A stretch of 64,000 nucleotides of DNA, from positions 1,478,974 through 1,542,973 of the forward strand of contig NZ_DF968181.1 in the NCBI RefSeq assembly GCF_001192795.1, given 5' to 3'. Source of the DNA: Flexilinea flocculi (GTDB taxonomy: Bacteria > Chloroflexota > Anaerolineae > Anaerolineales > Anaerolineaceae). The position numbers were made by a program, and so were the translations under genes. Shown one piece after another: positions 14,973 to 28,450 of this stretch. The notes beneath the pieces were generated by a model. That model saw only the letters and a list, made by a program, of their open reading frames with translations, had not been told where the DNA came from and searched no databases. Within the stretch, counting starts at the first letter, position 1; the number at the start of each line of letters is the position of its first letter.

Positions 14973-16346
14973 ATGACTGTTTATGATGTAATCATTGTTG
15001 GAGCCGGAATGGGTGGTTTGTTTTCAGCATATGAGCTCATTCAAAACAATCCTTCTCTGAAAATCAAGATTATTGAAAAAGGGAAAAAGCTGAATGAACG
15101 GAAATGCTTTGTTTCAAATACGCAGCAATGCATCCGCTGCAATCCGTGTTCGATTATGTCTGGTGAAGTAGGAGCAGGCGGATTTAGTGATTTTAAAACA
15201 ATTCTGTCTCCTTCGTATGGAGGTTGGCTTCAGGATTATATCGGATGGGATCAAACACAGGTATTAATAAATCAATTCAATGAAATCCTTGAAAAATTTG
15301 GTGATCAGACGGAAATAAAATATCCGGATGATGAGCTTCAACAACGCTGTTTGCGGCACAATTTGCGATTAATATCATCACCTCTGAAGCATATTGGGAC
15401 TGATCATGGCAGAATCATTATGAAAAACATGATTGATTTTTTGCTGGATAAGGGCGTCGAAATCGATACGGAGATGGATGTGAAATCGATTATTAATGTG
15501 CAGGAGAATTTATTCAAAGTTCAAACGAATAAAACAGATGAAGAATGCCGCAAGGTGATTTTCGCAGTTGGCAGAGTCGGCAATAAATTTATCGAGGATT
15601 ACTGCAACAGAAACGGTATAAAAGTATATTCCAATCACGTCGATCTGGGAGTCAGAGTCGAATTACCTTCTGTAATCTGGAAGGAATTTGAAGATAAGAT
15701 TTATGAACCGAAAATTCAATATCGGACGAAAACATATGAAGATACGACAAGAATGTTTTGCCATAATTCTCGCGGTTATGTGGTCACTGAAAACACAAAT
15801 GGAATTCTGACAACGAATGGTCATGCTTATAAAGAAGAAAAACTTAAGACCAATAACAGTAATTTTGCGATTCTTTCTTCGATTCATTTTACGGAACCTT
15901 TCAATAATCCCATTGAATATGTCAGCAGTATTGCGAAGCTGTCGAATATTATTGGTAACGGAAATGTACTGATTCAGCGATTTGGCGATTTGATTCGAGG
16001 TCGCAGATCCACGGAATCCCGAATTGCAATGTCAACAACGATTCCGACTTTGAAAGCGACTCCGGGAGATTTGTCACTTGTGCTGCCCAAAAGAATCCTG
16101 GATAACATAATCGAGACAATATATGCATTGAACCAGGTTGCGCCCGGAACCTCGAATGATGATTCCTTGTTATATGGCGTTGAAGCAAAATATTATTCAA
16201 TACGTCCGCAAACCAATGAAAACTTTGAGATTTCAAAAAATGTGTACTGTATTGGCGATGGCAGCGGTATTACGCGGAGTTTGTCACAGGCCGGAGCAAT
16301 GGGTATTTACGTGGCTAAGAAAATATTAGGCAACGCTGAAAAATAA
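14973..16346 (+). CDS. FAD-dependent dehydrogenase, COG2509 type
   Basis: The 457-residue cytoplasmic flavoprotein has the FAD-binding GxGxxG at residues 9-14 (VGAGMGGLFSAYEL), a CIRCNPCSIMSGEVGAGGFSDFK segment typical of uncharacterised COG2509 dehydrogenases, an internal VIFAVGRVGN second dinucleotide motif, and a C-terminal VYCIGDGSGITRSLSQAGAMG that closes the FAD site. The cysteines around residue 47-53 (CIRCNPC) could bind a metal or be redox active. Its substrate is unknown for the whole family. It stands alone, with repeat copies on both sides. Confidence 0.85.
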   Translation: MTVYDVIIVGAGMGGLFSAYELIQNNPSLKIKIIEKGKKLNERKCFVSNTQQCIRCNPCSIMSGEVGAGGFSDFKTILSPSYGGWLQDYIGWDQTQVLINQFNEILEKFGDQTEIKYPDDELQQRCLRHNLRLISSPLKHIGTDHGRIIMKNMIDFLLDKGVEIDTEMDVKSIINVQENLFKVQTNKTDEECRKVIFAVGRVGNKFIEDYCNRNGIKVYSNHVDLGVRVELPSVIWKEFEDKIYEPKIQYRTKTYEDTTRMFCHNSRGYVVTENTNGILTTNGHAYKEEKLKTNNSNFAILSSIHFTEPFNNPIEYVSSIAKLSNIIGNGNVLIQRFGDLIRGRRSTESRIAMSTTIPTLKATPGDLSLVLPKRILDNIIETIYALNQVAPGTSNDDSLLYGVEAKYYSIRPQTNENFEISKNVYCIGDGSGITRSLSQAGAMGIYVAKKILGNAEK

Positions 16347-16972: not shown

Positions 16973-19210
16973 ATGTTCGTAAACTATTTTAAAATGCTTC
17001 GAAACTATGCAAATTTTTCCGGAAAAACGACGCGTAAACAGTTTTGGTCAGCCATAACATTGCATATTATTATATTATTGTTATCCGATCTCGGAATTCT
17101 GATGACTTCACCACGTTATACTGCAGGAGAGTCAAACCTTTTCCTGGTACTTTTTTCTTTCAATATCTTTTATCGGTTCTTAACCTGGTTTCCGCTCTGG
17201 ACGATAACTGTTCGTCGCCTGCATGATATTCAAAAAACCGGCTGGTGGATTCTCATTCAATTGATTCCCATTTTCGGACAGATCGTTTTAGTGGTGTTTC
17301 TTCTCATGAAAAGCAAAGAAACACGAATGGAAAAAATTTTGTTTGATGCGAATCCTCGTCTTCGAGCAATTCTGAATAAACCAAGGAACGGTGGATGGAT
17401 ATGGCTTCCGTTGATTCTTACAGCCGTATGCATAATATATTATATAAAAGATCAACAATTTCAAAATAAGTATTTATCAGCAGTTTCATTTTTTGCTGAA
17501 GAAATTCATTTATCCGATCAAACCTATACTGCTATTGTTGAGAAGACTACAGATTTGATTTCGAGTATTCAGAATCACCGTATATTCTCTGGAAAAACTG
17601 TCACGGAAACAGCTGTGTCGATTGGATCGCCTGAAATTACAAAGGCTCAAGCTGAAGTAACGAAGACAGTCCATAATGAGACATCAGAAACAACTGAAGC
17701 TGTTGTGGAATACTCAACTGAAACCCCTATATCAAGTAATGTAATTTTGGAAAGTAACTCTTTGAAAAGTAAATCAGATCAGGCAGTTATCGTTCGGATC
17801 CAAATGGATCCAAATAACAACAGCACAACAGATGAATCTGCTTTGCATGGATCGGATTCAAATAATGACTTCTGGATAGATCAATATGAAGTGACCAATC
17901 AACAATATCATCTGTGTGAAACGTCCGGTTTTTGCACACCGCCAAACAATGTGCGCTCTGCAAAGACTGAGGACTATTACACAAATGATGCATATTCTGA
18001 ATATCCAGTTATTCACGTAACCTATGAACAGGCTTCATCGTACTGTAATTGGGCTGGCAGGCGATTACCGACCGATTCAGAATGGCAATCTGCTGCGGAA
18101 AATGAATCAGAAGATCCATACCCATGGGGAAAAACTTTTTCAAAAGACAAAGTAAATGCCGCAGACAGTGGAAATCGGGATACAACCGCAGTGGGAACTT
18201 ATCCAAAGGGTAAAACGAAAGATTCCATCTTTGATCTTGCTGGTAATGTATGGGAATGGGTCAATCCAGATAACGATTCAAAAACTGAAGCAAAATTTAT
18301 CAGAGGCGGCGCTTGGAATAGCTATGCAATTTCAGTCCAGACAACAAGTAAATTATTGGTGTCTCCTGATTATTATGCAGACGACCTCGGCTTCCGATGT
18401 GGAATTTCTACCAGAGAGATAAATCCTGCCGATTACAATGTACATAAGATTATGAATGATGAACCGGCAGAAACTGATTCACCGGATATAGGTTCGGAAC
18501 GCGATCGTGAATCCGACGGGATGATCGAGGTATTCATTCCAGAAGGCAATTTTGTGATGGGTAATCCAAATGGAGCTGTCAATGAAAAACCTGCACATAC
18601 AGTTTTCCTGAGTTCCTTTTGGATGGATAAGTTTGAAGTTAGCAATCAACAGTATGCTTCCTGTGTTAATGCTGGTGTTTGCACAGAACCAGGAGGAAAA
18701 AATTCTTTTAAAAGGAAGGATTATTATGGAAATCCCGAGTTTGAAAATTATCCTGTAATTCAGGTAACCTGGCAGCAAGCATCTGATTATTGCCACTGGA
18801 TAGAAGGGAGACTCCCGACTGAAGCAGAATGGGAAAAAGCAGCAAAAGGACTTGATGGTACGCTCTATCCATGGGGAAATGAGTTTGTTCCCCAGAACTT
18901 GAATTTTTCCGGAAGCGGAATAAATGATACACAACCTGTTGATATGTACGAAAATGGGATGAGCGGCTATGGTATTTTGAACCTGTCCGGAAATGTAGCG
19001 GAGTGGGTTTCTGATCTATATGCGGAAAATTGGTATACCACAACAAATCAGCCGGAGAATCCAACCGGACCTGATATTGGGGCTTATCGCATTTTGCGCG
19101 GCGGCTCATGGCTGACTTCACAGAATACTGCGCAGACTGTGAATCGATTTCAATCTTTGCCCACTGGTGCAGGATTCGATCGAGGTTTCCGTTGTGTTCG
19201 GCAGAATTAA
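16973..19210 (+). CDS. DUF805 membrane protein fused to two FGE-sulfatase-like domains
   Basis: The 745-residue protein starts at 16973 after GGGGGAG. Residues about 1-115 form a DUF805 membrane domain (NYANFSGKTTRKQFW, TVRRLHDIQKTGWW, several hydrophobic helices), a further helix lies near 140, then a Ser/Thr/Glu-rich linker. Two formylglycine-generating-enzyme-like domains follow (about 300-475 and 515-745), each with EVxNQQY, GRLPTxxEW, YPWG, LxGNVxEWV and RGGxW motifs. The active-site cysteine pair of true FGE is absent from both, so they are probably binding or structural domains outside the membrane. It leads the radical SAM cluster, 2 bp before the next gene. Its role there is unknown. 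Confidence 0.82.
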   Translation: MFVNYFKMLRNYANFSGKTTRKQFWSAITLHIIILLLSDLGILMTSPRYTAGESNLFLVLFSFNIFYRFLTWFPLWTITVRRLHDIQKTGWWILIQLIPIFGQIVLVVFLLMKSKETRMEKILFDANPRLRAILNKPRNGGWIWLPLILTAVCIIYYIKDQQFQNKYLSAVSFFAEEIHLSDQTYTAIVEKTTDLISSIQNHRIFSGKTVTETAVSIGSPEITKAQAEVTKTVHNETSETTEAVVEYSTETPISSNVILESNSLKSKSDQAVIVRIQMDPNNNSTTDESALHGSDSNNDFWIDQYEVTNQQYHLCETSGFCTPPNNVRSAKTEDYYTNDAYSEYPVIHVTYEQASSYCNWAGRRLPTDSEWQSAAENESEDPYPWGKTFSKDKVNAADSGNRDTTAVGTYPKGKTKDSIFDLAGNVWEWVNPDNDSKTEAKFIRGGAWNSYAISVQTTSKLLVSPDYYADDLGFRCGISTREINPADYNVHKIMNDEPAETDSPDIGSERDRESDGMIEVFIPEGNFVMGNPNGAVNEKPAHTVFLSSFWMDKFEVSNQQYASCVNAGVCTEPGGKNSFKRKDYYGNPEFENYPVIQVTWQQASDYCHWIEGRLPTEAEWEKAAKGLDGTLYPWGNEFVPQNLNFSGSGINDTQPVDMYENGMSGYGILNLSGNVAEWVSDLYAENWYTTTNQPENPTGPDIGAYRILRGGSWLTSQNTAQTVNRFQSLPTGAGFDRGFRCVRQN

Positions 19211-19212
19211 TT

Positions 19213-20595
19213 ATGAATTCTGCGGATATTTTTGCTGTGCCTGTCGGTAAAAAAGTATTAATTTATGCCCCGCTGCATGATGTGACCGCTTTAATTAATC
19301 GAGTCGCCTGGAAGAAGTGGTCTGGATACCTTGAAGATAACAAGCAATGTCCGGAATCCGCTTTGGAATTGTTTTCACGATTTGAACTATCGCAGAAGGG
19401 AGAGCCGAGTTGCCGATCCGGTAACCTGACGGACCCGTTGTTGCTTGGATTGATACCGACACGTGCCTGCAATATGAGCTGCAGATATTGTGATTTTACT
19501 TCATCTAATCCTGCAATTATGTCCTTTGATACTGCAAAGAATGCCATTCGCGCTTATCTTGAATTACTCCATCAAAATGACAAAAAAAAAGGAGAAATCC
19601 ATTTTTTTGGCGGAGAACCGATGATTGTTCCTGAATTGGTACAGTTTGCGGTTGAATATGCGCGATATGAAGCCGGAAAAAATAAAATCGAGATTCATTT
19701 TGAACTGATTACGAACGGTTTATATTCAACAACTCTCGCGCAATGGCTTTCTCAAAATTTTGACACTGTGATTCTTTCTGTAGATGGATTTGGCGAATTT
19801 CAAAATCGATTTCGTCCGATGAAAAATGGATCCCCGTCATTCGAAACTGTCTGTAACAACGCTCGTATTTTCTCGGATTCAGATTGTGAATTCGTGATCC
19901 GTTCATGTGTATTTCAAGATAATGCAGCACATCTGCCTCAGTGGGCTGAATGGATTGGAAACAACTTACTGCCATCGATGGTCTGTTTTGAGCCGATGAC
20001 AAAATCTCAGGAATCGCAAAAAAATGAAATTTTTCCAGCAAAACCTGTTGATTTTGTGCAAAATTTTTGCAATGCATCTGATATTCTTAAAAATTTTGGA
20101 ATTCCAGTAATTTTTTCGACTACCGATATTACAAAAAATACAAATTCAATTTGTCCGTTGGGACAGGATGCTTTGATAATCTCGCCCGAAGGATCCATTT
20201 CCAGTTGTTATCAGCTCGAAACAGAATGGAAAAGGCAAAAAATGGATTTGTCTTTTGGATGGATAGATTCAGAAGGTTTCCATTTTGATATGGAAAAAGT
20301 GAATCACTGTCGCGAATTTTCTGTTCATAACAAACGGTTTTGTGAAAACTGTTTTTGTAAATATCATTGTACAGGTGGATGCCATCTTTCTCACAACACC
20401 GATAAAGTATCTGGTTTGTATGATGATTTCTGCATTGAAACGCGAATGATCAGTGCGGCATTTTTATTGGATGAATTAAATCAATCTGCGCTGAAAGAAG
20501 AATGGCTGTCCGATGAAGACAGTATTCGGATCATGGCAGCACAATCTTCGGATCGCTGGTTGGATTATAGATCCATGGCGATAGCCGAACTCTGA
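19213..20595 (+). CDS. radical SAM/SPASM protein (rSAM-1)
   Basis: The 460-residue protein has the radical SAM motif C86-NMS-C90-RY-C93, the GGEP motif (FFGGEPMI), and a C-terminal SPASM region (CPLGQDALIISPEGSISSC, then RFCENCFCKYHCTGGC) expected to bind auxiliary iron-sulfur clusters. Such enzymes mature peptides or act on proteins through thioether, C-C or epimerisation chemistry. The start at 19213 lies 2 bp after the DUF805-FGE stop. About 80 residues precede the barrel and may form a recognition domain. The substrate is unknown; the Cys-tailed WD40 protein downstream is the obvious candidate. Confidence 0.88.
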   Translation: MNSADIFAVPVGKKVLIYAPLHDVTALINRVAWKKWSGYLEDNKQCPESALELFSRFELSQKGEPSCRSGNLTDPLLLGLIPTRACNMSCRYCDFTSSNPAIMSFDTAKNAIRAYLELLHQNDKKKGEIHFFGGEPMIVPELVQFAVEYARYEAGKNKIEIHFELITNGLYSTTLAQWLSQNFDTVILSVDGFGEFQNRFRPMKNGSPSFETVCNNARIFSDSDCEFVIRSCVFQDNAAHLPQWAEWIGNNLLPSMVCFEPMTKSQESQKNEIFPAKPVDFVQNFCNASDILKNFGIPVIFSTTDITKNTNSICPLGQDALIISPEGSISSCYQLETEWKRQKMDLSFGWIDSEGFHFDMEKVNHCREFSVHNKRFCENCFCKYHCTGGCHLSHNTDKVSGLYDDFCIETRMISAAFLLDELNQSALKEEWLSDEDSIRIMAAQSSDRWLDYRSMAIAEL

Positions 20596-20680
20596 AAATA
20601 AGATAGAACCGACCAGGCATATTTTTTTCGGAATGATGACAATTTCTTTTCCGAGGATCGGGAAAACAAAGGTTGATTTT

Positions 20681-20956
20681 ATGAATATCTGGAATTATTC
20701 ATTTACCAATAATCTTTATTGGGTCAATGATAGGAATGGTGTGGTTGTGGTTGATGAGCAGCATCAGCAATCCTATTTACTGGGATCCTCTGAAAGTATT
20801 CTATGGCGTTTACTTATTATTCATATAGATTCTGATGCGATTATCAGACGATTTTCAGCTATTATTTCGGTTTCTGAAGATGAGGGCAAAGGAAAAATAC
20901 TTTCTATTCTAAGCAAGTGGGAGAAAAACAACCTTGTGGAGCACGGGAATGACTAA
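20681..20956 (+). CDS. PqqD-like small protein (RiPP recognition element candidate)
   Basis: Ninety-one residues. The segment GSSESILWRLLIIHIDSDAIIRRFSAII followed by a helix and KWEKNNLVEHG matches the winged-helix pattern of PqqD-type recognition elements, which bind leader peptides for radical SAM maturases. The start at 20681 is preceded by AAAGG; an in-frame ATG at 20633 is possible but lacks a ribosome-binding site. It overlaps the next radical SAM gene by 8 bp, so the two are probably coupled. Assignment is by pattern only and should be tested by profile search. Confidence 0.6.
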   Translation: MNIWNYSFTNNLYWVNDRNGVVVVDEQHQQSYLLGSSESILWRLLIIHIDSDAIIRRFSAIISVSEDEGKGKILSILSKWEKNNLVEHGND

Positions 20957-21917
20957 TTTGATCATATCCAACATCTGTAATGCAAATTGTGATTTTTGTT
21001 TTGCATCCTCATTCCTGCATGAAAGAGAAAACCATTCAAAACAGAAATTTATGTCATTCGATGAGATCCGATCATATGTTCATCTTTTCGATCAAGCCGA
21101 CATCCATGATATTCGATTGTTAGGCGGAGAACCAACGCTCCATCCTGCTTTTGATGAAATCATCGCATTCGCCAAAGCGAATTCAAAACATATCACGATT
21201 TTTACCAACGGATGTTTATCTGAAATTGCGTTGGCGGCTTTGGAAAACCTCTCTCCCGATGAATGTGCCATTATCATGAATATGAATGCAAAGATTTCTC
21301 AGGAACAGATCAGGACTCGGGAAAAAACACTGATCCGGCTTGGAGACAAAGTGATTTCCGGATATACAATCACACAACCTGTTTTTTCATTAGATAGTCT
21401 GATTCAAACGATTCTGGATTACAACCTTCAACGAATCGTTCGATTAGGTTTATCACTGCCGATTTTTTCAAAAAAAAATAAGGCGCTTCATCCAAAGCAA
21501 TTTCCCGTAGCAGGTCATTGCTTAGCCCAACAATCATTCACTGCCTTTCAGTACGGAATTCAAATTGAACCGGATTGCGGTTTCGTACGATGTATGTTTT
21601 CAGAAGATGATTTTCAAATTTTAAAGAAACACGACTTCCATTATGTTTCTTGCTGCAGTCCCGTCATAGACATCTGTTCGGAAGGACATTTCTTACATTG
21701 TTTTGCCTTGTCTGAAAAATTCTATGAAAAATACCATGAATCGATGGGAATCCACGAAATTCGTGAAAATTTGATCGAAAGGACGAATCCCTGGCAAATC
21801 AGCGGAATTTACCCGGAATGCGGAACATGTCTCTATAAAAGAAGCGGGGAATGTTGCGGTGGATGCCTTTCAATGATTCTAAATCGTTTTCATCCGATTG
21901 GAAACTCAGGGAATTAA
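20949..21917 (+). CDS. radical SAM protein (rSAM-2), short form
   Basis: The 322-residue protein has C10-NAN-C14-DF-C17 near its start, RLLGGEPTLHP, and a Cys-rich C-terminus (PECGTCLYKRSGECCGGC) that may bind an extra cluster. It lacks an N-terminal domain of its own; the PqqD-like protein encoded just upstream (8-bp overlap) may supply that function in trans. The start at 20949 has GGAG 7 bp before it. Two mid-protein cysteines pairs (CGFVRC, SCCSPVIDIC) add to the unusual cysteine content. Substrate unknown. Confidence 0.85.
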   Translation: MTNLIISNICNANCDFCFASSFLHERENHSKQKFMSFDEIRSYVHLFDQADIHDIRLLGGEPTLHPAFDEIIAFAKANSKHITIFTNGCLSEIALAALENLSPDECAIIMNMNAKISQEQIRTREKTLIRLGDKVISGYTITQPVFSLDSLIQTILDYNLQRIVRLGLSLPIFSKKNKALHPKQFPVAGHCLAQQSFTAFQYGIQIEPDCGFVRCMFSEDDFQILKKHDFHYVSCCSPVIDICSEGHFLHCFALSEKFYEKYHESMGIHEIRENLIERTNPWQISGIYPECGTCLYKRSGECCGGCLSMILNRFHPIGNSGN

Positions 21918-22381
21918 TGAAAAATCGAAAATCATACTTGTTCGACTGTGATCATATTTTACCTATTGAAAAATTAAGGGTAACGATACCGCGTCGGGCA
22001 GTCCTATCTTTTGCAAAAGAACAGATTCAAGCGAAAAAAATGCGTCAAATTGGCATTCCGACCTATCTGATTGACAATTTAACCGATTTGGAAACAAATG
22101 AATTTATGCAGATTAAACCGGTTGTTTGTAAAGGCGTAAAAATTCAGATTATCGAGCAAATCGTTTGCGGGACACCATGCTCCGGAAACGAACCGATACG
22201 ATTATTCCCAATTCAATCGCTGACGCTCAATATATTCAATCAATTTAATGGACAGCAAACGATAGCTGAGATTGTTTCGATCATTCAAGAAGAAACAGGT
22301 TGGAGTTTGGATAAATCTGCAGCAGTTGTCAGAAATTTATTCTTACGATTATGTGAAGTCAGAATCTGTGAACCAGGGTAA
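21917..22381 (+). CDS. small protein with C-terminal PqqD-like domain
   Basis: The 154-residue protein begins in a TAATG overlap with rSAM-2, with AGGGA before the start. Residues about 100-150 (SLTLNIFNQFNGQQTIAEIVSIIQEETGWSLDKSAAVVRNLF) fit the PqqD pattern of a substrate-binding winged helix. The N-terminal 90 residues are not recognised; they contain VCKG and CGTPC motifs with three cysteines. It is followed after 3 bp by rSAM-3. A likely role is presenting a substrate to one of the maturases. Confidence 0.6.
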   Translation: MKNRKSYLFDCDHILPIEKLRVTIPRRAVLSFAKEQIQAKKMRQIGIPTYLIDNLTDLETNEFMQIKPVVCKGVKIQIIEQIVCGTPCSGNEPIRLFPIQSLTLNIFNQFNGQQTIAEIVSIIQEETGWSLDKSAAVVRNLFLRLCEVRICEPG

Positions 22382-22384
22382 ATC

Positions 22385-23776
22385 ATGGACGAGTCGGTGA
22401 TGGAATCAGTCGCTATCTCAATACAGAAAGGATTTTTTTTCCAACAAATCCAGACTTGCGATTTACCGATTTTTATGCATGAATATAAAGGACATACGCT
22501 TTTTTACACACCTGGATTATTGATTGCTGCAAGTCCGGATCAGGCTTCACAACTGATTTTCGATTTGCATAATCCGAATCCCCGGTCCGTCTATGCAAGA
22601 CAGATCAGACAAAAAGCTGAAATGGCTGTCAGTCAGTTTGATTTACAGCATCGAATTTCGACTTTTACACCTTATTGTTTGACGTTATATACTTCGACCG
22701 ATTGTAATTTAGATTGTTGTTATTGTTACTCAGGAAGCAAGGAGCATACAAGCAGTGTTAATTTAGATCTGATAGCAATCCGAAAAGGCGCCGGAATCGT
22801 TGCTGAAAAATGCAAAAAAGCTTCGCTTCCGATGAGTGTTGTTTTTCATGGCGGTGGTGAACCGCTGATTGATCCACGCTTACCAAAAATCTGGAATTGT
22901 ATCCATGAAATTGCCGATATCTACAATGTAAAAATTTCTTCTTATATTGCAACCAATGGAGTCGTATCAGAAAAAGCTGCCAAATGGGCAGCAGCACATA
23001 TCGATCAGATTGGTTTATCCTGTGACGGATATCCGGACATTCAGAATCGGCAGCGGTCTGGAAGGAATGGAGATCAGACTTCACCCATGATCGAACGGAC
23101 TGCTCGCATTCTGCATGATGAGAAAAAGAAGATAATTATCCGTGCAACGATCACAAAGGAATCGTGTTCGCAAATTCCGGAGATCATAAGATACTTTTGT
23201 GATACGTTGCATGCAGATGAAATTCATCTGGAACCGGTTTTTGACGGATTGGATTCGGAAAGAGTTAATGGCTTTTCAATTCGAGATGCAGAATATTTTT
23301 GTAGCCAATTTGTAAAAGGAAATGAACTGGCAGCAAAAAAAGGAGCAACCGTAGAATTCAGCGGAAGCAGACTGAATGAAATTCATGGAAGATATTGTCA
23401 AATTTTTCGTCATGTGCTCCAAATCGTTCCCGGCGGAGGCATTTCGACATGTTTTAAGACGATAGACCGAAATACTGCAAAAAATGGAGGAAGTTTGATG
23501 GGTGATATTCATGATAGTGATGTAAATTTGCTTCAGTTATCGGAGATAAGCAGAAAACTATCAATGGATGATCCCGCTTGCCTTTATTGTTTTAACCGCT
23601 TTCATTGCTCACGCGGATGTCCTGACATATGTCCATTGGCTGGAAGTGAAGATTATGGGAGTTTTCGATGTCGGATCAATAAGATAATGACAGGATATTC
23701 CTTACTCAAATTTACTGATGATTTTTTGCTTCCGATGATTTCTGAACATGAGATCATCGGAATGGAAATCCATTAG
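22385..23776 (+). CDS. radical SAM/SPASM protein (rSAM-3)
   Basis: The 463-residue protein has a recognition-like N-terminal domain (residues 1-95), the radical SAM motif C107-NLD-C111-CY-C114, an FHGGGEPLID motif, and a SPASM-type C-terminus (CQIFRHVLQIVPGGGISTC, CLYCFNRFHCSRGCPDIC). The order and length resemble anaerobic sulfatase-maturase and peptide-maturase relatives. No sulfatase is encoded here, so a peptide or protein substrate is more likely. It is coupled to the PqqD-like gene upstream and followed by a repeat copy before rSAM-4, to which it is similar in layout. Confidence 0.87.
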   Translation: MDESVMESVAISIQKGFFFQQIQTCDLPIFMHEYKGHTLFYTPGLLIAASPDQASQLIFDLHNPNPRSVYARQIRQKAEMAVSQFDLQHRISTFTPYCLTLYTSTDCNLDCCYCYSGSKEHTSSVNLDLIAIRKGAGIVAEKCKKASLPMSVVFHGGGEPLIDPRLPKIWNCIHEIADIYNVKISSYIATNGVVSEKAAKWAAAHIDQIGLSCDGYPDIQNRQRSGRNGDQTSPMIERTARILHDEKKKIIIRATITKESCSQIPEIIRYFCDTLHADEIHLEPVFDGLDSERVNGFSIRDAEYFCSQFVKGNELAAKKGATVEFSGSRLNEIHGRYCQIFRHVLQIVPGGGISTCFKTIDRNTAKNGGSLMGDIHDSDVNLLQLSEISRKLSMDDPACLYCFNRFHCSRGCPDICPLAGSEDYGSFRCRINKIMTGYSLLKFTDDFLLPMISEHEIIGMEIH

Positions 23777-23800
23777 GTTATTAAAAATGCGCCAAAAAAA

Positions 23801-23923
23801 CAGCAATTTGAAATTTGGGACGGATTTTTTGTTGTTGGGTTTTCTGAATTCATCGCGAAAAAATAACACTATAACAAGTTTTCGCTCTTTTCTCATATGT
23901 TTTTCCCAAATTTTCTGTTGCTG
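23801..23923. repeat. dispersed intergenic repeat, copy 12 (full length) inside the radical SAM cluster
   Basis: A 123-bp copy. Ends CAGCAATTTGAAATTTGGG and CCCAAATTTTCTGTTGCTG pair over most of 19 bp. The inner arms start with TTGTTGTTGGGTTTTC and end with ATAACAAG. It begins 24 bp after the rSAM-3 stop and ends 16 bp before the rSAM-4 start, interrupting an otherwise tight operon. Confidence 0.75.
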
Positions 23924-23939
23924 AAAAGAAAGGCTGGTT

Positions 23940-25238
23940 ATGGACTTTTTCCGAATACCATTTGAAAATAAAGAGATATTGTACCGTCCGAAACTGCATT
24001 ATGCAGTTTTGGCGAATCATTTTGCTGCCGATCTGGCCGAAGAAGTCTGCAATCATCCTGATCGAATGGATGTATTGATTCAGAATGAAGTTATTCATTA
24101 TTTGAAAGAGACTGGTTTTTTTCAGGAAGACCCGATTATCGAGAGTCAATCTTCTTTCAGCCTGGATTTTTCTCCGACAGCTGCCGCGTTATTGATGACC
24201 AATCGTTGTAATTTACGCTGCATTTATTGTTACGCAAATGGCGGTAGCGAAAATGATCTGGATATGACCTTTTCAACAGCGAAAAAAGCAATAGATCTGG
24301 TTTCAAACAACGCGATTAAAAAAAATCGATCTTTTTTTCATGTTACTTTTCACGGTGGGGGAGAGCCGACATTAAATTGGGACGTATTGGTTGAAGCAGC
24401 TACCTATGCCAAACAAAAAAGTATTCCGGTTAAGACCTGTCTGGTCAGCAATGGAATTTGGAGTCAAAAACAGTTTGAGTGGATCAGCCAACAAATTGAT
24501 GAAATCACTATTTCAATGGATGGCGATCAACAGACACAAGATTATCAACGTCCCTTTTCAAACGGAAAAGGTTCTTTTGAACCTGTTATGGCAACTATCG
24601 CAAAATTAGATCAAATTTCTTTCCCATATCATATTCGCGCAACGGTAACGCCGGAAAGATTTTCTTGTATGAAAGAAGATATCTCCTTTTTATGTGATGC
24701 GACGAACTGTAAATCCATCCAGATTGAACCTGCATTTAACACAATCCGCGGCAGTCATCAAAAATCAAATACAGAGGATAATGAAAGATTTGCCGATGCA
24801 TTTTTGGAAGCATGGGATGCTGCACATGAGAGAAACTGTAATCTGTATTACTCAGGGGCACGACCTTGGCTGGTGACTAATGTGTTTTGTGAAGCGCCCT
24901 TTGGACAGAGTCTGACAGTCAATGCAAAAGGAGAGGTGGTCGGATGTTATGAAATGACTGGAAGAGACACAAATATTGACGATTCTTCTCTATTCGGTTC
25001 CGAGGATGCATTAGATTTTCGAATAGACAATGAAAAAAGAGCAGCATTAATGGAAAAGATCGGGCATCGTAAGAATCGTTGTGATCAATGCTTCTGCCGT
25101 TGGCATTGTGCAGGAGATTGTTACACCAGAGGTTTCCCAACCGGGAATGGGGAATGGCCATATTCGCGCTGTGATATTAATCGGAAAATTACTGCGGGAT
25201 TAATTGTACGAGGAATTGCAGAACAGAGTTCATTGTGA
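23940..25238 (+). CDS. radical SAM/SPASM protein (rSAM-4)
   Basis: The 432-residue protein has C90-NLR-C94-IY-C97, FHGGGEPTLNW and a SPASM C-terminus with CDQCFCRWHCAGDCYTRG. Residues 1-80 resemble the N-terminal part of rSAM-3 and may be a recognition element. AAAGGCTGG precedes the start. The WD40 Cys-tail gene begins 61 bp after its stop, making this the maturase closest to the proposed substrate. Which residues it modifies is not known. Confidence 0.88.
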   Translation: MDFFRIPFENKEILYRPKLHYAVLANHFAADLAEEVCNHPDRMDVLIQNEVIHYLKETGFFQEDPIIESQSSFSLDFSPTAAALLMTNRCNLRCIYCYANGGSENDLDMTFSTAKKAIDLVSNNAIKKNRSFFHVTFHGGGEPTLNWDVLVEAATYAKQKSIPVKTCLVSNGIWSQKQFEWISQQIDEITISMDGDQQTQDYQRPFSNGKGSFEPVMATIAKLDQISFPYHIRATVTPERFSCMKEDISFLCDATNCKSIQIEPAFNTIRGSHQKSNTEDNERFADAFLEAWDAAHERNCNLYYSGARPWLVTNVFCEAPFGQSLTVNAKGEVVGCYEMTGRDTNIDDSSLFGSEDALDFRIDNEKRAALMEKIGHRKNRCDQCFCRWHCAGDCYTRGFPTGNGEWPYSRCDINRKITAGLIVRGIAEQSSL

Positions 25239-25299
25239 AAGTAATTTTTGCGATGAATCAGTTTTTATCGATCTTATTCAGAAAAAAATGGGAGTACCT

Positions 25300-26652
25300 A
25301 TGAATGATTTTGAAAACAAAAATCTTGATGATGAAAATGAAATTCCTGAAATCTACTCCTTGAAAAAAGGAAAAAATGGCTGGCAAATCAGTCGCAGGGA
25401 TTTCTTGAAAACGGCTGGCGCTGCTTCGGCTTTAGCTGCGGCAGGAATCGGAAATCGCAGCAGATTAATTCCAGTCTCAGCTGCTGAAATGAATGATCTT
25501 TGTAAAGTAAGCAAAGCGCATAACGAAGAGATCACAGCAATCGCGGTCAATTCGTCCAGTACCCGTTTTGTTTCTGGCGATGAAAGCGGAGAGATCAAGG
25601 TGTGGACTTTGCCTGACTTTGGATTGGAAAATTCGTTGATGATCGGAAATGGAACGATTCGATCTTGCATTTTTAACATAGACAGCACTATTTTATATGT
25701 CGGGACTGATCTCGGAAGTGTTTTTCGAATTCTGTTGGAAACGATGGAGATACAGGAAACGATCTTAACTGATACTTCCTCACCAATTTCATGTATGGCG
25801 ATCAGTAAAAATGGAAATATGATTGCTTTGAGTAATGATGAAGGAAAGCTTTTCCTTTATGATAATGAAGCTGGCAAAATAATCGCCCAACTCGACACCA
25901 CTGATCACAGTTTTGTGAAAATGAATTTTTCGGCTGATGCCAAGACGCTGTATACCTGCAGTTTTACTGGAAATATTCGTACCTATTCTGTGCCCGAACT
26001 AAAGTTGCTTGATACCAGCCTGGAACTGGATCGGACCATCACTGCAGCAGGATTCATCCCTGGAGATATCCATTTGATTTATTCTCTGCATGAGGGCGGT
26101 TTCGTTTTTTACTCTTTACCGGAAGACAGGGAAATCTGGGCGGCAGATAATCCTGGCGATACTGTTTTTGCTTTGGAAAGCAGTCCGGACGGTTCTCTTT
26201 TTATAACTAGCGGTACACAAAACACGTTGAAAATGTGGAGTACTAGCAACGGGAAATTAATTTCCGAGATTTTTTCATTCTCTCAAAAACTTCCTCTTCT
26301 TTCCATCACACCGGATGGCACCTTATTGATTTCAACCACCGGGAAATCGATCCTGGTTTGGTCTCTTCCAGATGGTAAATTAATTCAATGCCCTGTTGAC
26401 TTGAGCATTATGCCAGAAAATGAAAAAGCTATTACGATTGAAAAGGTCGATGAAGTGACAGGAAAAACGATCACTTTTACGCTACCTTGTGGATCACCAC
26501 TTCCAGCAGGAGCCGTATGTGTCTGCAATTGTGTGGGAGGATCTTTGTGCAGTTGTGATGCTTACACAACCTGTAGCTGCGACAGTCATTCAACATGCAG
26601 CTGTGTCGGGCATACCGTGACGTATTCCTATCATTACTGGCACCCCAATTAA
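25300..26652 (+). CDS. Tat-exported seven-bladed WD40-type protein with C-terminal CxC repeat tail
   Basis: The 450-residue protein starts at 25300 (GGAG 5 bp upstream). A long n-region precedes a Tat signal, SRRDFLKTAGAASALAAAG (residues 31-49). Residues about 75-385 contain seven WD40-like units, each ending in a pattern such as IKVWTL, LKMWST or ILVWSL, enough for a closed propeller. The tail has ten cysteines in residues 397-435; CxC pairs start at 409, 417, 425 and 433, an exact 8-residue period, and the protein ends in an aromatic YSYHYWHPN. Lying between rSAM-4 and a HemN-like protein, the tail is a likely radical SAM substrate; a metal-binding tail is the alternative. Confidence 0.82.
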   Translation: MNDFENKNLDDENEIPEIYSLKKGKNGWQISRRDFLKTAGAASALAAAGIGNRSRLIPVSAAEMNDLCKVSKAHNEEITAIAVNSSSTRFVSGDESGEIKVWTLPDFGLENSLMIGNGTIRSCIFNIDSTILYVGTDLGSVFRILLETMEIQETILTDTSSPISCMAISKNGNMIALSNDEGKLFLYDNEAGKIIAQLDTTDHSFVKMNFSADAKTLYTCSFTGNIRTYSVPELKLLDTSLELDRTITAAGFIPGDIHLIYSLHEGGFVFYSLPEDREIWAADNPGDTVFALESSPDGSLFITSGTQNTLKMWSTSNGKLISEIFSFSQKLPLLSITPDGTLLISTTGKSILVWSLPDGKLIQCPVDLSIMPENEKAITIEKVDEVTGKTITFTLPCGSPLPAGAVCVCNCVGGSLCSCDAYTTCSCDSHSTCSCVGHTVTYSYHYWHPN

Positions 26653-26654
26653 TC

Positions 26655-28028
26655 ATGAATGTTTGGGATGAAGTACCACAAGAATATATAGCCATCATCA
26701 AAGATCAGTTAGGTGCGCTTGAAGATAAAACGGAGCGGCACAATAATCTTGAACAGATCGTTGGACGTCGCTGGATGCCGAAGCCGTTATGGGCTGTGCG
26801 AAACTATGATCATGATGGAATTGAAGCCTGGGAGAAATTATCCGGGATTCCTTCTTCGCATAGCCGAATAACCCCATATTGTATTTATATTCACGTTCCG
26901 TTTTGCCGAGCGCGATGTGGTTATTGCGATTGTTATGCCTTCCCATTATCAAAGAATGAACAACGGCATATTCAGCAGTATACCGATGCTCTGGTTCAGG
27001 AAATTGAGATGTGGGGGTCTCAGGAACTACTCAAAGAACGGATTATTTCCACAGTCCATTTTGGAGGAGGGACTCCTTTAATGCTGGGCATCTCGAACCT
27101 CGACAGAATTGTCAACGCATTAAAACACAATTTCTGCTTTTCAAGCAAAACTGAGTTGGCGTTTGAGACGACCAGTTCTATGCTGACTGAAGAAATCCTC
27201 GCTTCATTCAATCAATTGGGATTTTCAAGAATCCATATTGGTGTACAAAGTTTGCAGGAGGATGTACGAAAAAAAATTGGCAGACGGGAATCGCCCAAAA
27301 CTGTTCTGGAAAAAATCCGATGTGCAGTTCGTTTCGGATGGATTGTCAGTACCGATGTAATTATCGGGCTCCCCGGTTACAGAAATCCCGGAATATTAGA
27401 TGATTTGGATTCTCTGATGGAAAACGGTGTGGAAGGTTTTTCCATTTATGAATTGGTTCAATCACCTCGTAATCGGTTGTTTTTTGATCAATTTCATCTG
27501 ACACAACAGCCAATTCTGGATAAATTTATTATGTTTCAAACAGCTTTTCAACATTTGTTAAAGCACGGTTTTGAGAATTGTCTTTATAACCATCTTTCAA
27601 AGCATAGAGATAAAAATCTATATTTCACCTCACCATCCAGGCATGAAGATCTTTTGGGAATCGGGACGATTGCCGATGGATATTTTGGCAATTTCCAATA
27701 TCGACATAGTACCTATTTGGCTTATTTAAAATCAATTTCTGAGAAGAATCCGGGTTTTGAAGGAGGACTGGTACGATCTGCAGCAGAGGATGTGTACAGG
27801 CAGCTTGAGGTGGAGATTCGCAGCGGTAAACCGGATCCATTGGTTTTTGTTGCAAATATCGGCTACGAAAAATCAATGGATTTGTTTGCTAAATGGATTC
27901 GATTAAAAATGATCTGTGTCGATCCATCCGGTGATTCCTGCACATTGACTCCCAACGGAGCTTGGTTTATTGGCAAGTTATTATCTGACGCCGCTGAAAA
28001 CATTGACACAACAACATTTATCTATTAG
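26655..28028 (+). CDS. HemN/HemW-like radical SAM protein (rSAM-5)
   Basis: The 457-residue protein has the HemN-type motif C84-RAR-C88-GY-C91-D-C93 after IYIHVPFC, then VHFGGGTPLML and IHIGVQSLQEDVRKKIGR, all markers of the coproporphyrinogen-oxidase-like group. It has about 75 residues before the motif that are not usual in HemW. It begins 2 bp after the WD40 Cys-tail gene and shares its operon, so a modification role (class C radical SAM methyltransferases share this fold) is more likely than haem synthesis. That reading is inference from context; the substrate is unknown. Confidence 0.82.
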   Translation: MNVWDEVPQEYIAIIKDQLGALEDKTERHNNLEQIVGRRWMPKPLWAVRNYDHDGIEAWEKLSGIPSSHSRITPYCIYIHVPFCRARCGYCDCYAFPLSKNEQRHIQQYTDALVQEIEMWGSQELLKERIISTVHFGGGTPLMLGISNLDRIVNALKHNFCFSSKTELAFETTSSMLTEEILASFNQLGFSRIHIGVQSLQEDVRKKIGRRESPKTVLEKIRCAVRFGWIVSTDVIIGLPGYRNPGILDDLDSLMENGVEGFSIYELVQSPRNRLFFDQFHLTQQPILDKFIMFQTAFQHLLKHGFENCLYNHLSKHRDKNLYFTSPSRHEDLLGIGTIADGYFGNFQYRHSTYLAYLKSISEKNPGFEGGLVRSAAEDVYRQLEVEIRSGKPDPLVFVANIGYEKSMDLFAKWIRLKMICVDPSGDSCTLTPNGAWFIGKLLSDAAENIDTTTFIY

Positions 28029-28141
28029 TTTTTCAGTATATATATCGGATTGCTGAATTGCTGTACAACAATTGATCATAGGTTTTCTGTCCACTCGAAA
28101 AACATATTCTTCTATTGAATTGCAGATTGCTGTCCCGCCGC

Positions 28142-28170
28142 TTGAAAAACCAATTTCAATTTGATATAAC
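28142..28170 (+). promoter_or_regulatory. sigma-70-type promoter of the dodecin gene
   Basis: TTGAAA (28142-28147) and TATAAC (28165-28170) are separated by exactly 17 bp, and TGA directly precedes the -10, giving an extended element. The dodecin ATG lies 59 bp downstream. Confidence 0.65.
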
Positions 28171-28228
28171 TAAAAATAAGAATACTGATCCCTATTTGTT
28201 ATCGAAAAGAATTCTGGAAAGGAACCAA

Positions 28229-28450
28229 ATGAGCGAAAGTGTTTACAAGATTATTGAATTGGTGGGAACCAGCACTGAATCATGGGAGAAAGCAGCCGTG
28301 ACAGCTATAGAGACTGCAATGAAGACCTTGGATGATGTAAGAATCGCAGAGGTTGTCAAACAAGATATTCAGATTGAAGATGGTAAAATCCTGGCTTATC
28401 GGACACGGCTCAAGATTTCATTTAAATATCATAGTAAGGATGTGTCCTGA
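28229..28450 (+). CDS. dodecin family flavin-binding protein
   Basis: The 73-residue protein matches dodecin in length and sequence: MSESVYKIIELVGTSTESWEKAA, then AIETAMKTLDDVRIAEVVKQDIQIEDGKI and a final RTRLKISFKY strand. Dodecins form hollow dodecamers that store flavins or their breakdown products. The start at 28229 follows AAAGGA and gives the standard N-terminus. It has its own promoter and is followed after 10 bp by a repeat copy, so it is probably monocistronic. Confidence 0.9.
   Translation: MSESVYKIIELVGTSTESWEKAAVTAIETAMKTLDDVRIAEVVKQDIQIEDGKILAYRTRLKISFKYHSKDVS

Follow-up and report, generated by a model that had tools for sequence, protein, structure and literature searches.

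In the portions of the literature drawn on here, modification by radical S-adenosylmethionine (rSAM) enzymes together with recognition elements (RREs) of ribosomally synthesised and post-translationally modified peptides (RiPPs) is already known, as are the modification of a protein subunit by QhpD and RiPPs with Sec signals. According to the sections of these papers used here, the rSAM enzyme QhpD makes links in a protein subunit, the gamma subunit of QHNDH (PMC8172795), PapB accepts other Cys spacings too (PMC9413430), and bufferins are MNIO-modified RiPPs with Sec signals and Cys-bearing precursors (PMC12452194); parts of PMC10352776 and PMC7470986 were also checked. We analysed a window of 64,000 nucleotides from Flexilinea flocculi (assembly GCF_001192795.1, contig NZ_DF968181.1, positions 1,478,974 to 1,542,973 of the forward strand, numbered here from its first letter), in which a cluster at 16973-28028 encodes five rSAM enzymes (rA to rE), two small RRE-like proteins (q1 and q2) and a protein with a twin-arginine translocation (Tat) signal and a Cys-rich tail. 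Giving it a probability of roughly 0.7, we propose this cluster to be a RiPP-like system acting at the protein level, in which RREs would hold a leader, rSAM enzymes would modify the tail, and Tat and signal peptidase would export and cleave the product. For this layout of leader, Tat signal, carrier and tail with this enzyme set we found no description in open-licence PMC papers. The case of QhpD makes the statement of a preliminary description of this DNA, that known rSAM systems act on small peptides, too strong.

The cluster consists of nine genes on the plus strand, where the preliminary description had counted eight with gaps of 0-160 bp; their open reading frames (ORFs) overlap at four of the eight junctions and the widest gap is 163 bp. 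The five enzymes are where it had placed them, with Radical_SAM (PF04055) above cut-off in the ORFs at 19108-20595, 20934-21917, 22385-23776, 23940-25238 and 26595-28028. The features are:

16973..19210, plus strand: accessory protein with DUF805 and two FGE-sulfatase-like stretches; ATG at 16973; second FGE domain without the catalytic Cys pair
19108..20595, plus strand: rA, radical SAM/SPASM-type enzyme (Pfam), in a clade of its own with 23 rows
20633..20956, plus strand: q1, stand-alone RRE-fold protein, PqqD- and lasso B1-like (profile and predicted structure)
20934..21917, plus strand: rB, short radical SAM enzyme (Pfam) with a Cys cluster at the C-terminus
21851..22381, plus strand: q2, the other small protein, RRE-like in its C-terminal half (profile and predicted structure)
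22385..23776, plus strand: rC, radical SAM/SPASM-type enzyme (Pfam), in a clade of its own with 20 rows
23940..25238, plus strand: rD, core enzyme of radical SAM/SPASM type; closest solved sequence 5wgg; its clade includes the single enzyme of minimal systems
25300..26652, plus strand: Tat-exported WD40 carrier protein with Cys tail (PF10518, WD40, tail), putative substrate
25339..25410, plus strand: EIPEIYSL leader motif with Tat SRRDFLK, a candidate docking site for RREs in the n-region of the signal
26482..26652, plus strand: tail with LPCGSPLPAGAVCVCNCV head, CSC units and HYWHPN end
26595..28028, plus strand: rE, HemN/HutW-like radical SAM enzyme, relative of the NocN methyltransferase

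The carrier gene starts most likely at 25300, as judged by comparison with a relative, resulting in a protein of 450 amino acids that combines WD40 repeats with a Tat signal (PF10518, 2.3e-6) and with a tail of 56 residues, 10 of them Cys; the genome encodes TatC (9.3e-58), so that both a twin-arginine signal and a Tat system are present. The earlier view of an exported WD40 protein with a Cys tail being the best substrate candidate is supported. Five of the 21 Radical_SAM matches in the 3.51 Mb genome fall into the cluster and its gene set recurs elsewhere, both arguing against a chance assembly of genes.

The recurrence was followed from both the enzyme and the tail. At 1e-20, rD has matches in 7 of 61 related genomes, and these rD matches led to the first tail relatives. 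A survey of genome contigs with the tail alignment alone yielded 58 loci out of 102 pattern-matching stretches, giving 59 with the window (loci are numbered L, genomes G). They are labelled as Chloroflexi, Acidobacteria, Armatimonadota, Nitrospira, Bacteroidota genera, Proteobacteria, Verrucomicrobiota (Ereboglobus), Planctomycetota, Nitrospinota and sulfate-reducer-type lineages, although most are metagenome bins whose taxon names may be wrong. In 47/59 loci, the tail gene has an rSAM gene no more than 300 bp away; this figure combines 45/55 from the detailed neighbourhood count, which covered the window and 54 of the 58 loci (its pattern omitted L041, L046, L073 and L078), with L041 and L046 added by hand, and some of the counted ORFs are truncated by contig ends (L035, L075). 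Tail homologues without rSAM neighbours are thus not widespread, which is the outcome of the neighbourhood check that the preliminary description had suggested. In three further loci (L047, L056, L065) an rSAM gene is found at 533-1741 bp, and in nine none was seen nearby, four of these having rD elsewhere in the assembly at 1e-30 (L026, L064 with a partial match, L073, L077). The short tail of L041 was discarded as proof of rD specificity, its genome holding rD and a second tail protein elsewhere.

Of the 396 class genomes examined, 11 match the tail profile and 10 score above 600 bits with the rD profile, these 10 being the tail genomes minus G137, where the tail match is weak (5e-4) and contains three stops. 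In one set of family profiles, no profile drew on more than 60 sequences. The next best rD match in the 396 genomes, in an eleventh genome (G240), reaches 304 bits. This relative (L119, G240:C145, 8095-10342) has two small CxC-rich peptides, with a leader of another kind, as neighbours and is possibly a free-peptide version of the system; as it adjoins CxC-rich peptides, the rD family may act on such peptides more generally.

What the loci share in the candidate substrate is its two ends. Comparing the window protein with seven others (L022 to L031; without the near relative L021, whose carrier is 68% identical), identity amounts to 46-67% in the leader and 73-86% in the tail head, in contrast to 18-27% in the carrier. 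Carriers comprise WD40 propellers, SH3 domains (above the Pfam cut-off in L060, below it in L049), linker-only proteins and long multi-propeller proteins, and the L067 carrier has no domain besides the Tat signal. The carrier is exchangeable and the propeller is a carrier only: of the earlier proposal of a folded WD40 protein as target the Cys tail holds, whereas the propeller as its defining part was rejected since the tail also occurs on SH3-domain and linker-only proteins. Tail ORFs elsewhere encode 238 to about 1000 amino acids, some being cut by contig ends, and several loci have two or more tail genes, e.g. L027 and L043, where several tandem tail proteins stand beside one enzyme set.

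Most tails begin with a CG[SA]PIPxGAVC[TV]CNCV head, followed by C-x-C units with Ser or Thr as x in 155/177 cases and a spacing of 6 residues (64/115) or 8 residues (24/115), L053, L077 and two L043 fragments being left out of these counts; the tails end in an HYW[YH]PN-like or CTCxxV-like sequence. Most likely, the tail is an exported, cross-linked Cys module, which may serve metal or cofactor binding, anchoring or defence. Other C-terminal sorting domains also occur on varied carriers, and a single conserved tail on varied carriers, the Tat signal and the conserved head and end would also suit a C-terminal sorting or anchoring signal whose rSAM modification enables surface attachment. We regard this as unlikely, as further sequence comes after the tail in L045 and L070 and Peptidase_S74 in the long multi-propeller proteins of L054 and L056, the number of C-x-C units per tail varies strongly, and an inspection of the recurrent neighbour clusters by eye revealed no transpeptidase-like partner. 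This neighbour clustering gave 18 clusters, mainly antisense ORFs, the remainder of which is unannotated and was judged by eye; neither a recurrent exporter nor a recurrent protease was recognised in it.

The type of tail end appears to follow the enzyme content. In a tree of 89 enzyme rows (L018-L020, L076 and partial and fused enzymes left out), rA, rC and rD each have a clade of their own; where long enough for the tree, the lone enzymes of minimal systems belong to the rD clade. At least one of q1, q2, rB and rE is present in 30/33 loci with HYW ends compared to 0/22 of the others, with a Fisher value of 1.8e-12 that is descriptive only for these related loci; among the 22, L040, L050, L061 and L064 are cut near the tail gene and the L053 tail runs into N. 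Regarding the three HYW exceptions, the L026 genome has rB elsewhere, L076 shares a contig with L043, which has q1 and rB, and in the L035 genome none was found. L036, L043 and L065 combine a minimal-type rD with q1, rB and HYW ends, whereas L068 and L074 show the reverse (forks placing them have 83-84% support). These five loci suggest that the HYW end goes with the additional enzymes and not with the lineage of rD, and they make it unlikely that this end is a mere marker of that lineage.

A second conserved element, absent from the preliminary description, precedes the Tat arginines. In most tail proteins with HYW ends, a P-[EQ]-[IV]-[YF]-[AS] motif ends about 10 residues ahead of the Tat RR, with the variants PAVYS, PNVYS and PEVFD, and most tail proteins of minimal systems show a FELxRVxxDGxxxxPxIxP-like sequence at the equivalent place. 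A profile of the HYW-type leader matches 228/396 class genomes at E <=0.01, with 10 full-length matches in 9 genomes, all of them tail genomes; in the tenth tail genome (G250) the tail gene is cut at a contig end. The other matches, among those listed, reach at most 28 bits and, with one exception, cover the Tat half only. As full-length matches are, among those listed, confined to tail genomes, the motif is not a general feature of Tat signals.

Candidate readers of this motif are q1 and q2, which the preliminary description had called PqqD-like, an assignment supported by an RRE fold in the predicted structures of both. The window copies have no Pfam match of note. A search with the q1 family profile retrieves TfuB1 (6.7e-7) and TbiB1 (6.7e-6), both of them lasso leader-binding proteins, and Pfam PqqD is matched by 6/15 q1 family members (E up to 1, best 1.9e-5), the window q1 not being among them; the q2 family profile finds PqqD weakly (0.0046), and 0/19 q2 family members have PqqD in the Pfam listing. 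AlphaFold models have a mean pLDDT of 82 (q1) and 81 (q2). In Foldseek comparisons, the q1 model matches leader-bound TbiB1 with an E of 1.3e-4 and a target TM-score of 0.82, and the q2 model matches it at second rank in its C-terminal half only (5.4e-3, 0.76). Three strands followed by three helices, with a structural match to RREs, are seen in q1 and in the C-terminal half of q2. Judged by its predicted structure q1 is an RRE, and q2 is very likely one; both would bind the leader. The fold of q1 and of the q2 C-terminal half is that of lasso-peptide B1 and PqqD RREs, whereas the partners here are rSAM enzymes, and neither a lasso cyclase nor a B2 protease was recognised among the cluster genes of the window.

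CxC repeats resemble metal-binding stretches, and this likeness could speak for an unmodified metal-binding or disulphide-rich tail with rSAM enzymes acting elsewhere, as could the five of 59 loci without rD found in the assembly. We think this very improbable given that rD and tail coincide in 10/396 genomes, that the cassette encodes RRE-fold proteins, that the tail protein has a conserved N-terminal motif, and that, by eye, no other recurrent candidate substrate was seen in the neighbour clusters of the loci.

The enzymes themselves are not assigned to any NCBIfam family, as among the best 25 models listed per protein none is above cut-off for the five enzymes and the scanned tail proteins, except for the Tat-signal domain model. 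The best NCBIfam matches of rD are PapB, CefB and SCIFF maturases, and the solved sequence nearest to its profile is 5wgg (1.3e-37), named radical SAM domain protein in its PDB row and which we take to be CteB. This closeness, together with a Cys-rich target, is what links the system to ranthipeptides/SCIFF. In contrast, rD scores far under the cut-offs of these maturase families (PapB 143.5 bits, cut-off 340; SCIFF 103.3, cut-off 425), the window candidate has 450 residues and tail ORFs mostly several hundred instead of a small precursor, C[ST]C repeats replace the Cys-X3-Asp of PapA, and the cassette comprises up to five rSAM enzymes and two RRE-fold proteins. With QhpD, as far as described in the sections cited above, the system shares an rSAM enzyme and, putatively, a protein as its target; it differs in its varied carriers and in the motif beside the Tat signal, and rD reaches 97.7 bits against the QhpD model TIGR03906 (cut-off 453). 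The enzyme rE stays below the cut-offs of HutW (190.8 bits, cut-off 400) and HemN (118.9, cut-off 324.95), its matches among solved structures being HemN (2.4e-24) and the methyltransferase NocN (7.6e-19). It forms one protein with a second rSAM enzyme in L055, L029, L057 and L027; this other half scores equally with the rA and rC profiles and is taken as rC because L055, L029 and L027 hold a separate rA. rB is fused to, or precedes, a domain of about 330 residues (L055 6648-8633, L027 3060-5045, L029 7216-9216, L121 3190-4125). A related yet different rSAM locus, L132 (G458:C473, 3971-11403), contains two tandem rB-like enzymes, a q1-like protein and an apparent ABC exporter, with no tail gene seen.

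Several points weigh against a protein-level RiPP-like system. That the tail is modified, by which chemistry and to what function, is what we infer. Related and overlapping loci inflate the survey counts: L043 and L076 overlap on one contig, L026, L043, L057 and L076 share one assembly, and L058/L062, L060/L063, L049/L051 and L030/L031/L032 are near-duplicates. For 5/59 loci (L040, L050, L053, L061, L078) rD was not found in the assembly at 1e-30, the tail gene beginning less than 180 bp from a contig end in L040, L050 and L061 and the L078 tail locus reading as degenerate. The rD profile includes rows from matched genomes (at least the window, L058 and L072), as does the leader profile (at least the window and L072), so that matches in those genomes hold by construction; because of this overlap, the informative side of the rD survey is the absence of such an enzyme from the rest of the 396 genomes, and that of the leader search is its specificity. 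For q2, the top Foldseek match is the methyltransferase 8hkr (3.4e-3), ahead of the RRE TbiB1, all matches lie above E 0.001, and profile comparison with q1 is weak (probability 6.9%). An RRE inside rD was looked for and, by profile comparison, no q1-like domain was found there, leader binding by rD in minimal systems being presumed. Among 19 genomes with non-HYW tails, that of L037 has rB-like genes, in an ABC-exporter locus with no tail seen, and further residues follow the tail in L045 and L070. Finally, the domain at rB in L055, L027 and L121 is a sub-threshold Peptidase_U32 match, making a dedicated protease possible.

The first gene of the cluster encodes, as described before, a DUF805-FGE protein (DUF805 1.6e-19; FGE-sulfatase 3.6e-83 in two stretches, Pfam). 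Aligned to 5nxl and 6s07, its second FGE domain lacks both cysteines of the GGS-LC-YC stretch, presumably the catalytic pair of formylglycine-generating enzymes, ruling out an active formylglycine enzyme for the second domain; the first domain was judged by eye. As FGE-like proteins also occur in just 9/59 loci, this protein is no evidence for formylglycine chemistry. Directly after the cluster lies a dodecin gene (28115-28450; PF07311, 1e-24), not counted in the set, and before it a gene for a FAD-dependent oxidoreductase-like protein (14973-16346), for which none of the listed NCBIfam models reaches its cut-off.

From the computed gene set, RRE folds, co-occurrence, leader specificity and varied carriers we infer docking, order of steps, chemistry and tail purpose as follows. 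Within the n-region of the Tat signal, q1 and q2, and in minimal systems presumably rD itself, would bind the PE[VI][YF]A motif, and the leader-bound RREs would bring the rSAM enzymes to the Cys-rich tail of the carrier. Given its kinship to CteB/PapB, rD would most likely form thioether links on the C[ST]C units; given their co-occurrence with it, rA-q1-rB and rC-q2-rE would most likely act on the HYW[YH]PN end, rE perhaps by methyl transfer. The Tat signal would be held during modification and export thereby delayed, Tat would export the folded product, and signal peptidase would remove signal and leader in one cut. A farther-reaching proposal, which we consider evenly balanced, is a cross-phylum class of protein-sized Tat-exported RiPP-like products with a leader in the n-region, an exchangeable carrier and an rSAM-modified C[ST]C tail, in which the RREs double as Tat proofreading chaperones releasing the signal only after modification and signal peptidase removes the leader. 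Bufferins, in the portion of PMC12452194 used here, are alike in their Cys-bearing precursor, ordinary export signal and equal need to delay export, and unlike in their MNIO enzymes, Sec signals and precursors first restricted to <200 residues.

The system makes testable a question raised in that part of the bufferin paper, i.e. how precursor export before modification is prevented (PMC12452194). The minimal one-enzyme version in Ereboglobus sp. PH5-10 (L038, with two tail proteins), whose genome record bears no metagenome label, may make its study practical. If true, our proposal would carry leader-guided radical chemistry beyond short peptides, to folded proteins that are exported and to their tails. 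It would also add as many as five rSAM enzyme activities that are so far undescribed and whose substrate is defined, and it would offer a route to fit a chosen protein with a chemically modified tail and to export it.

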